From assembly GCF_020096995.1 (NCBI RefSeq), contig NZ_CP083692.1:1-64000 (forward strand): a stretch of 64,000 bases of DNA, written 5' to 3'. Of the stretch, positions 1,541 through 14,870 are shown one piece after another. Each line of letters begins with the position of its first letter. Position 1 is the stretch's first letter. Below the pieces are notes generated by a model. That model was not told where the DNA came from, ran no database searches, and worked only from the letters and a program-made list of their open reading frames with translations. The position numbers were made by a program, and so were the translations under genes. The DNA comes from Leucobacter sp. Psy1 (GTDB lineage: Bacteria; Actinomycetota; Actinomycetes; Actinomycetales; Microbacteriaceae).

Positions 1541-1938
1541 TTCGAGTTATCCACAGTTTTCTCCGCTCTTGTGGATTGCTGGGGGCAACGCCGGTCAAAA
1601 TGTGGATGAATTCGTTTCGCCTGTGAGTGGGAGTCGGAATGACAACATTGGCGTTTTCACTGGGCTCGAATCTCTCCACCCCCGCCGCACAACTCACAAT
1701 CTTGTAGTTCCGTGGCGACAGCTTGAATGTCCGGGGTTATCCACAGAATCCACAGCTGTTAACACCGTTAACACCTCTCATTCATTTTTCGGGCATTCGA
1801 TCACGCTCTCCGGCTGATGTCGCCCGAGTGTCGGGATCACAAGTGTGCGAAGATGGTGAGCCTCAGTGCTGTAGTCTCGTTATCCACGCGAGTCCGCGGC
1901 GCGGTTCAGTGCGCCTGTCGAAGGATCGAGGAGTCTCT
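1541..1938. other. oriC: Origin of replication oriC (DnaA-box cluster)
   Basis: This 398-bp gene-free stretch between dnaA and dnaN carries perfect TTATCCACA boxes on the plus strand at 1547-1555 and 1737-1745. It has near matches at 1746-1754 (GAATCCACA) and 1880-1888 (TTATCCACG), and minus-strand near matches at 1570-1578 and 1601-1609. The boxes at 1737 and 1746 are directly adjacent. A locally AT-rich stretch with a GTTAACACC repeat follows at about 1759-1800 and could be the unwinding element. The dnaN promoter must also lie here, near the 3' end. Confidence 0.9.
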
Positions 1939-3091: not shown

Positions 3092-4354
3092 ATGCGGGTG
3101 GCACATCTCTCGCTCGCGGATTTTCGCAACTATCACCACGCTGAATTGCCGCTCGCTCCGGGCGCGAATCTGATCGTCGGGCGGAACGGACAGGGCAAGA
3201 CGAATCTCGTCGAGGCGATCGGATACTTCTCTGGGCTGCGATCCCACAGAGTCTCCCAAGACGCTCCGATGATCAGAGCAGGTGCCGATGCTGCGATATC
3301 CCGGATGCGTGTCGCCGTGGGGGAGCGGGAAGTGCTGCTCGAGCTGCAGTTGAACCGGGATCGGCCGAATCGTGGTCAAGTGAACCGTGGGAGCGTTCCC
3401 CCTCGTGAGGTCACGCGATGGTTCTCATCGGTCCTCTTCGCGCCCGAAGACCTCTGGATCGTTCGTGGGGATCCGTCGACTCGTCGTCGCTTCCTCGATG
3501 AAGCGGTCGCAGCGTACCGTCCAGCGATGAGTGGGGTTCTTGCGGACTATGAACGCGTCCTTCGTCAGCGCACTACTCTCCTGAAGTCTGCTCGAGGTGG
3601 TGGATCGAGGCGGTCCGCGGCCGAAGCGACAATTGGTGTCTGGGATGAGCAGCTCGTCGAGTTCGGCTCTCGCATTATCATCGCGCGGCGGGAGCTTCTC
3701 GCTCGGCTGTCTGGGCCCGGGCGCGACGCCTATCACGCACTGGTCAATGCGGATCACGGCTTCGCTCTGGCGATGAAGGAGACGGTCGCGGCACCCTCCG
3801 TTTCACGTGAAACAGTGGCTGCAGAGTCCACCACCAGTACGTCGACTGTTTCACGTGAAACAGTCGCGCAGGAGTTCTGGAATTCCCTACAGAGCGCGCG
3901 GGACCAGGAGTTCGAACGCGGACTCACGTTGGTTGGCCCGCACCGGGACGATCTCCTGCTCTCACTGAATGATCTCCCAGTGAAAGGTTTCGCTAGTCAC
4001 GGCGAGACATGGTCATTCGTGCTGGCCCTCAGGCTCGCGATCGCACAAGTGCTGCGGGAGGACGACCCGGCGGGGGATCCCGTTATTATTCTCGACGATG
4101 TCTTCGCAGAACTCGATTCAGCGCGGCGCGCTCGGCTGATGGCGGCGGTACAGGACTTCGAACAGGTGATCGTCACTGCTGCGGTTCGGGATGACGTGCC
4201 CGAGCATGCTGGCTGGCGTATCGCTGAGATCTCCGGTGGCCAGATTATCGAGGGGACCGATCCTTCCGAACCGGAGAATGCGTTTGAGCGAACGATTTCC
4301 GAAGGTTCGATCGCGGAGTCGCCGGGTCGCAGCACGGAGGACCGTAATGACTGA
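3092..4354 (+). CDS. recF: DNA replication and repair protein RecF
   Basis: RecF is an SMC-like ATPase that loads RecA at single-strand gaps. The N-terminus reads MRVAHLSLADFRNYH, followed by Walker A GRNGQGKTN near residue 30; Walker B IILDDVFAELD lies in the C-terminal third. At 420 residues it is longer than typical RecF (about 360-400). Part of the excess is a low-complexity stretch at about residues 232-260 that contains the pentapeptide VSRET twice (237-241 and 253-257); both copies are translations of parS sites. The 3' end overlaps the DUF721 gene by 8 nt. The function is secure; the insert is probably there for the DNA, not the protein. Confidence 0.96.
   Translation: MRVAHLSLADFRNYHHAELPLAPGANLIVGRNGQGKTNLVEAIGYFSGLRSHRVSQDAPMIRAGADAAISRMRVAVGEREVLLELQLNRDRPNRGQVNRGSVPPREVTRWFSSVLFAPEDLWIVRGDPSTRRRFLDEAVAAYRPAMSGVLADYERVLRQRTTLLKSARGGGSRRSAAEATIGVWDEQLVEFGSRIIIARRELLARLSGPGRDAYHALVNADHGFALAMKETVAAPSVSRETVAAESTTSTSTVSRETVAQEFWNSLQSARDQEFERGLTLVGPHRDDLLLSLNDLPVKGFASHGETWSFVLALRLAIAQVLREDDPAGDPVIILDDVFAELDSARRARLMAAVQDFEQVIVTAAVRDDVPEHAGWRIAEISGGQIIEGTDPSEPENAFERTISEGSIAESPGRSTEDRND
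3799..3814. promoter_or_regulatory. parS: parS centromere site 1 (within recF)
   Basis: CGTTTCACGTGAAACA matches the bacterial parS consensus TGTTTCACGTGAAACA at 15 of 16 positions. ParB binds such sites near the origin to organise and segregate the chromosome. The site lies about 2 kb from oriC, inside the recF reading frame, and is read as VSRET. Confidence 0.88.
3847..3862. promoter_or_regulatory. parS: parS centromere site 2 (within recF)
   Basis: TGTTTCACGTGAAACA is a perfect 16-bp parS palindrome. It is exactly 48 bp (16 codons) from site 1 and in the same codon phase, so the protein carries VSRETVA twice. The pair probably forms a ParB loading cluster. Confidence 0.93.
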
Positions 4355-5010: not shown

Positions 5011-9569
<4,559 letters not shown>

Positions 9570-14832: not shown

Positions 14833-14870
14833 TGACCGTGCGCTGTTCCACGTGAAACAGCGCACGGTCA
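14833..14870. terminator. 38-bp palindrome with a parS core between convergent genes
   Basis: The arm TGACCGTGCGCTGTT at 14833-14847 is matched perfectly by its complement at 14856-14870, so the 38-bp element is a palindrome broken by a single mispair at positions 14848/14855. Its centre 14844-14859, TGTTCCACGTGAAACA, is parS with one mismatch (15 of 16). The right edge overlaps the stop codon of the YeiH-type gene. It could act as a bidirectional terminator, as a ParB site, or as both. Confidence 0.7.

Follow-up and report, generated by a model that had tools for sequence, protein, structure and literature searches.

Two parS sites within the recF coding sequence of Leucobacter sp. Psy1 appear to be maintained as DNA rather than as protein

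Introduction

When a parS palindrome lies inside a conserved gene, is it kept for the protein or for the chromosome? The question is raised by recF of Leucobacter sp. Psy1, which carries two such palindromes, each translated as VSRET, close to the likely origin of replication. An initial annotation of the locus described the pair as DNA sites and proposed that they lie in a low-complexity insert that exists for the DNA and lengthens RecF. Here, we consider the sites in the window (the whole 64,000-nucleotide stretch analyzed, from the start of contig NZ_CP083692.1), in the rest of the chromosome, and among relatives. Our comparison suggests that the DNA letters are what is conserved and that the sites settled in a RecF loop that was already there.

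Results

The host chromosome is 3.25 Mb on a single contig, and the gene order from the start of the window is dnaA, dnaN, recF, a short gene, gyrB, and gyrA. The dnaA–dnaN intergenic region is the likely oriC, with perfect DnaA boxes at 1547 and 1737 and boxes with one mismatch at 1601 and 1880. The product of the third gene is a member of the RecF family (profile match to TIGR00611 of 271 bits, above the curated cut-off of 172), and its best solved relative is the RecF structure 2o5v (E 6e-36). The features are as follows.

65-1540: dnaA, flanking the likely oriC
1541..1938, no strand assigned: dnaA–dnaN intergenic region, likely oriC, with DnaA boxes
from about 1939: dnaN, flanking the likely oriC
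3092..4354, plus strand: recF, open reading frame of 420 residues, host of the parS pair
3799..3814, no strand assigned: parS site 1, CGTTTCACGTGAAACA, 15/16 with a perfect 14-bp core, read as V237-S-R-E-T241
3847..3862, no strand assigned: parS site 2, TGTTTCACGTGAAACA, 16/16, read as V253-S-R-E-T257, at the start of helix 255-268

Both sites came from a search of the whole window with TGTTTCACGTGAAACA, allowing up to three mismatches, for which about 0.05 matches are expected by chance. They match the 16-bp palindrome TGTTTCACGTGAAACA (general consensus TGTTNCACGTGAAACA) with a perfect 14-bp core, begin 48 bp apart, and lie about 1.9 kb from the likely oriC, so that the perfect copy and the 15/16 copy are where the initial annotation had placed them. 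They also share a codon phase, as it had said, with site base 1 at the third codon position. As an argument this shared phase is weak by itself because only two of the three parS frames are open (VSRET and FHVK), the remaining one containing TGA.

With at most one mismatch, the genome has only four sites, starting at 3799, 3847, 14844, and 3244115. None of the four is more than about 15 kb from the dnaA end of the contig; such sites cluster near oriC and are rare elsewhere. The site at 3244115 is at the jag–rsmG junction, beside parA and parB; a 15-kb stretch supplied the sequences of the ParB genes and rsmG. The remaining site is as follows.

14844..14859, no strand assigned: parS-like site TGTTCCACGTGAAACA (T5C), one mismatch, between two open reading frames

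The ParB encoded in this genome has ParB_N, HTH_ParB, and ParB_C domains. Aligned to Caulobacter ParB (6t1f), it has R and G at Caulobacter positions 173 and 201, the R173 and G201 pair that is conserved in parS-specific ParB proteins (PMC7383237). ParA and a ParB with parS-type helix-turn-helix specificity are both encoded.

Genomes of the genus usually contain exactly three canonical cores, and the reversed control pattern occurs in them zero times. The usual three are the recF pair and one core about 6.4 kb away at the jag–rsmG junction. Counts across the family range from 0 to 11 cores, so three is not unusual, and several other family members have parS sites near parAB. Seven sampled family genomes that are at least 95% complete have no exact GTTTCACGTGAAAC core (G016, G097, G159, G027, G031, G032, and G105). 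The first three are all of the sampled genomes of genus g16, in which, given the missing GTTTCACGTGAAAC cores, ParB specificity or the parS sequence may differ.

To follow the pair among relatives, we used 55 genomes, namely the window, 51 members of the genus, and three genomes from two allied genera (one from g47 and two from g51); some of these assemblies are incomplete, and two genus genomes, G429 and G431, have no usable recF. The 55 recF genes hold 110 parS sites, all in the VSRET phase: two in 51 genomes, three in two, and one in two, so that the pair is present in 53 of 55. One of the genomes with a single recF site, G209, suggests that a lineage can do without the second member of the pair. 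On a quick RecF tree built without the loop described below, the 55 genomes form one group, with a support of only 83; a single-site lineage (L197) adjoins it, and outside both are three genera with a different recF site. Among 79 other actinomycete recF loci, with flanks of up to 5 kb, no recF parS was found within two mismatches.

Several lineages carry additional cores. The RecF open reading frame of L158 (genome G096) is 556 residues long, with a long C-terminal extension that contains two more parS cores (recF +1335 and +1548), again read as VSRET. L172 and L191 (recF +713, +764, +803, and +1831) have three recF sites, with another core in the stretch that separates recF from gyrB, and L163 and L174 have one extra core downstream of recF.

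These observations, namely the sites, their conservation at the DNA level, the fraction of the genome's parS sites that they make up, and the specificity residues of ParB, lead us to think that the recF pair is very probably a functional origin-proximal parS of the chromosomal ParABS system, located in the recF coding sequence about 2 kb from oriC. Binding, loading, and segregation would then proceed as in studied ParABS systems. ParB would bind each 14-bp core through its helix-turn-helix and would load as a CTP-dependent clamp that slides to flanking DNA, and its recruitment of ParA and SMC would move newly copied origins apart. In the protein, site 1 falls in a flexible loop where nearly any sequence is tolerated, and site 2 falls at the start of the helix that follows.

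The recF sites could, alternatively, be real parS sites that are nearly redundant, the load-bearing centromere being the jag–rsmG junction site or the weaker sites farther out. In Pseudomonas aeruginosa, one of the four origin-proximal sites, whichever it is, is enough (PMC4368675), a single parS is enough in Corynebacterium glutamicum (PMC7083940), and some genomes in our set have degraded or lost recF copies. However, recF holds two of the usual three canonical cores, and at least one perfect 14-mer is found in recF of 55/55 genomes, including the two single-site genomes, which retain one perfect core each. We consider near redundancy unlikely.

A second alternative is that ParB is not involved and that the palindromes are either targets of some other DNA-binding protein or part of an RNA hairpin in the transcript of dnaN-recF-gyrB. 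The two palindromes do form a perfect inverted repeat of 17 nt, interrupted by 28 nt, and this repeat could fold in mRNA. However, the spacing between the sites varies from 39 to 108 nt, always as a multiple of three and most commonly 39 (the scan covered part of recF, and L192, whose far-spaced second copy is on record from another comparison, was counted there as single), and conservation does not extend to the bases that adjoin the core. Because of this variation, no paired stem is kept beyond the core, and the hairpin was rejected. As for another protein, the core is exactly the ParB site, a matching ParB is encoded in the genome, and the same core recurs at the jag–rsmG junction. Either form of this alternative strikes us as very improbable.

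Whether the sites are kept as DNA or as peptide is decided by the codons. On the RecF tree, no third position of a V, S, R, or E codon in either site has changed (8/8 columns), versus a mean of 18 changes and a minimum of 3 in 167 comparison columns with at least 90% residue conservation; all of these counts rest on a quick tree of the 55 related genomes. Wherever the residue is kept, the codons are 100% GTT, TCA, CGT, and GAA, the opposite of a VSRET retained with variable codons, which the initial annotation had named as a result that would refute it. The four core third positions are A or T, while the GC3 of recF is 70%, and the probability of these codons arising by chance, given VSRE, is 0.0011. 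The outer bases 1 and 16 of the sites, which are third positions too, have undergone 14–19 changes; the numbering of the ParB–parS structure takes as its base 1 the G that follows the outer T, which leaves these outer bases unnumbered (PMC7383237).

The exceptions to core conservation are equally informative. Seven departures, or about five events on the tree, are seen in the core, and all are nonsynonymous: three are T5C (S to P), three are A12G (E to G), and one is A13C (E to D). Six of the seven are thus at positions 5 and 12, and T5C on one arm of the palindrome is equivalent to A12G on the other. The best P. aeruginosa sites have C at position 5 and G at position 12 (PMC4368675), and position 5 is N in the general parS consensus TGTTNCACGTGAAACA (PMC7022226). 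Core third positions that are frozen, together with departures that are all nonsynonymous and mostly at positions where ParB sites vary, argue that selection acts on the DNA letters of the recF sites and not on the encoded protein. Across these relatives the sites are conserved as DNA, which supports the initial annotation in treating them as DNA sites, and the VSRET peptide is a by-product.

The reading in which VSRET is a conserved RecF peptide element, and the DNA is kept only through the protein, can point to a motif that is nearly invariant in the genus and to a second copy that caps a helix, but the codon data rule against it: the eight columns lack synonymous change while conserved V, S, R, and E columns elsewhere in RecF change at least nine times each, every core change alters the amino acid, RecF lacks VSRET almost everywhere else in the family, and one genome lacks the first copy, so we regard it as almost certainly wrong. 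Recent common ancestry was also rejected as the cause of site identity. Pairwise RecF identity averages 67% (minimum 52%), and, over 46 four-fold columns that are conserved, 66% of pairs have different third positions (47% in the lowest column).

The pair lies at a variable part of the protein.

3782..3841, plus strand: hypervariable low-confidence RecF loop, residues 231-250 (AlphaFold2 model), containing site 1 only

In the AlphaFold2 model (mean pLDDT 90.6), this loop sits between strand 224-229 and helix 255-268, with mean pLDDT values of 68 (residues 231-240) and 57 (residues 241-250) and surroundings at about 89–98. Of the two VSRET copies, both of which the initial annotation had placed in the insert, the first is inside the loop and the second is at the start of the helix. 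Loop length and sequence vary freely among relatives. The genus has a median loop length of 50 residues; a sample of 60 recF loci from elsewhere in the family, almost all with no parS in the loop, has a median of 49, and in other actinomycetes the loop reaches 77 residues without parS. Because the loop is equally long in relatives that lack parS, it appears to have come first, an older and permissive element of RecF in which parS settled. The comparison of loop lengths across the genus, the family, and other actinomycetes does not support an insert made for the DNA; relative to the family, the protein has not been lengthened, and the loop is not peculiar to the genus.

A third, imperfect copy is found farther along the operon.

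5467..5482, no strand assigned: parS variant GGTTTCACGTGGAACA in gyrB (5038-7032), 14/16, read as GFTWN

This variant departs from parS by A12G and one outer change, and its 14-bp core is therefore not perfect. Its codons, GGT TTC ACG TGG AAC, are identical in 53/53 clade genomes. In GyrB of other actinomycetes, the Trp is conserved (74/75) and the residues around it vary freely. GFTWN corresponds to the third parS frame, in which A12G turns the TGA stop into TGG, the codon of the conserved Trp. In the sister genera g4, g19, and g24, gyrB lacks GGTTTCACGTGGAACA, and the same 16-mer is present in the RecF C terminus, again as GFTWN around a Trp (L017:2626-2641, L218, and L219; recF +1125, +1125, and +1146, respectively). 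We infer that the GGTTTCACGTGGAACA copies are parS variants that escaped from the stop codon and that ParB would bind them. The use of a TGG codon to host a putative parS in the sister genera and in gyrB is apparently convergent.

Counting two recF sites and one stop-escaping gyrB variant, one could propose that most of this clade's centromere has shifted to the replication operon, across oriC from parAB. The pair may then be kept as two sites because ParB loaded there also adjusts the transcription of dnaN-recF-gyrB or directs SMC loading to both flanks of oriC. We put this forward as a speculation with a rather small chance of being correct.

Discussion

Intragenic parS sites are well known, including in recF. 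P. aeruginosa has parS1 and parS2 inside recF (PMC5521831), about 4 kb clockwise from oriC (PMC3909081), and ParB binds them in vitro (PMC4368675); nine of the ten parS sites of strain PAO1 are predicted to be in coding sequences (PMC4368675). As in Leucobacter, recF thus has two origin-proximal sites, which in P. aeruginosa are of high affinity. However, P. aeruginosa belongs to another phylum, its sequence is TGTTCCACGTGGAACA/C, and its frame, deduced from the positions of silent mutations in Table 1 of PMC4368675, is FHVE, in contrast to VSRET in Leucobacter. Because of this difference in frame, the Leucobacter placement looks convergent, and it is probably independent of that in P. aeruginosa.

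Other systems share fewer features. Bacillus subtilis has the intragenic parS TGTTCCACGTGAAACA within parB (spo0J), which has been used in binding studies (PMC4333373). This 16-mer is identical to the site at 14844 of the window, but it is a single site, in parB, without a flexible loop of a repair gene. C. glutamicum likewise has an actinobacterial parS cluster in the oriC region, an array confirmed by ChIP (PMC7083940), but nine of its ten sites are intergenic, and only parS1 lies in coding sequence (trpCF) (PMC7083940). In Caulobacter, Tn5-borne parS insertions showed enrichment both close to the native cluster and in the vicinity of recF/gyrB/CCNA0160 (PMC5815017); unlike the sites considered here, those recF–gyrB insertions are artificial, and the authors give no known reason for the enrichment (PMC5815017). 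The literature was searched for links between VSRET and parS and for parS in Leucobacter, and nothing relevant came up. The present case adds codon evidence across a whole clade, an actinobacterial pair placed at a flexible loop, and a variant that seems to have escaped the stop codon.

Overall, recF of Leucobacter provides a very clear example from nature in which a DNA-binding site overrides codon choice within a conserved gene. Core third positions are frozen amid drift, and the changes that are tolerated follow the preferences of ParB at the protein's cost. The locus also illustrates a route for centromeres into coding DNA, by way of flexible loops and the open frames VSRET or FHVK, and an alternative route in which the third frame escapes its stop by A12G (TGA to TGG) at a conserved Trp. 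Taken with P. aeruginosa, it suggests that recF–gyrB has repeatedly been chosen for parS. There is a warning here for the reading of alignments as well: both VSRET and GFTWN could be taken for protein motifs under conservation, yet they are DNA sites, the latter a putative one.
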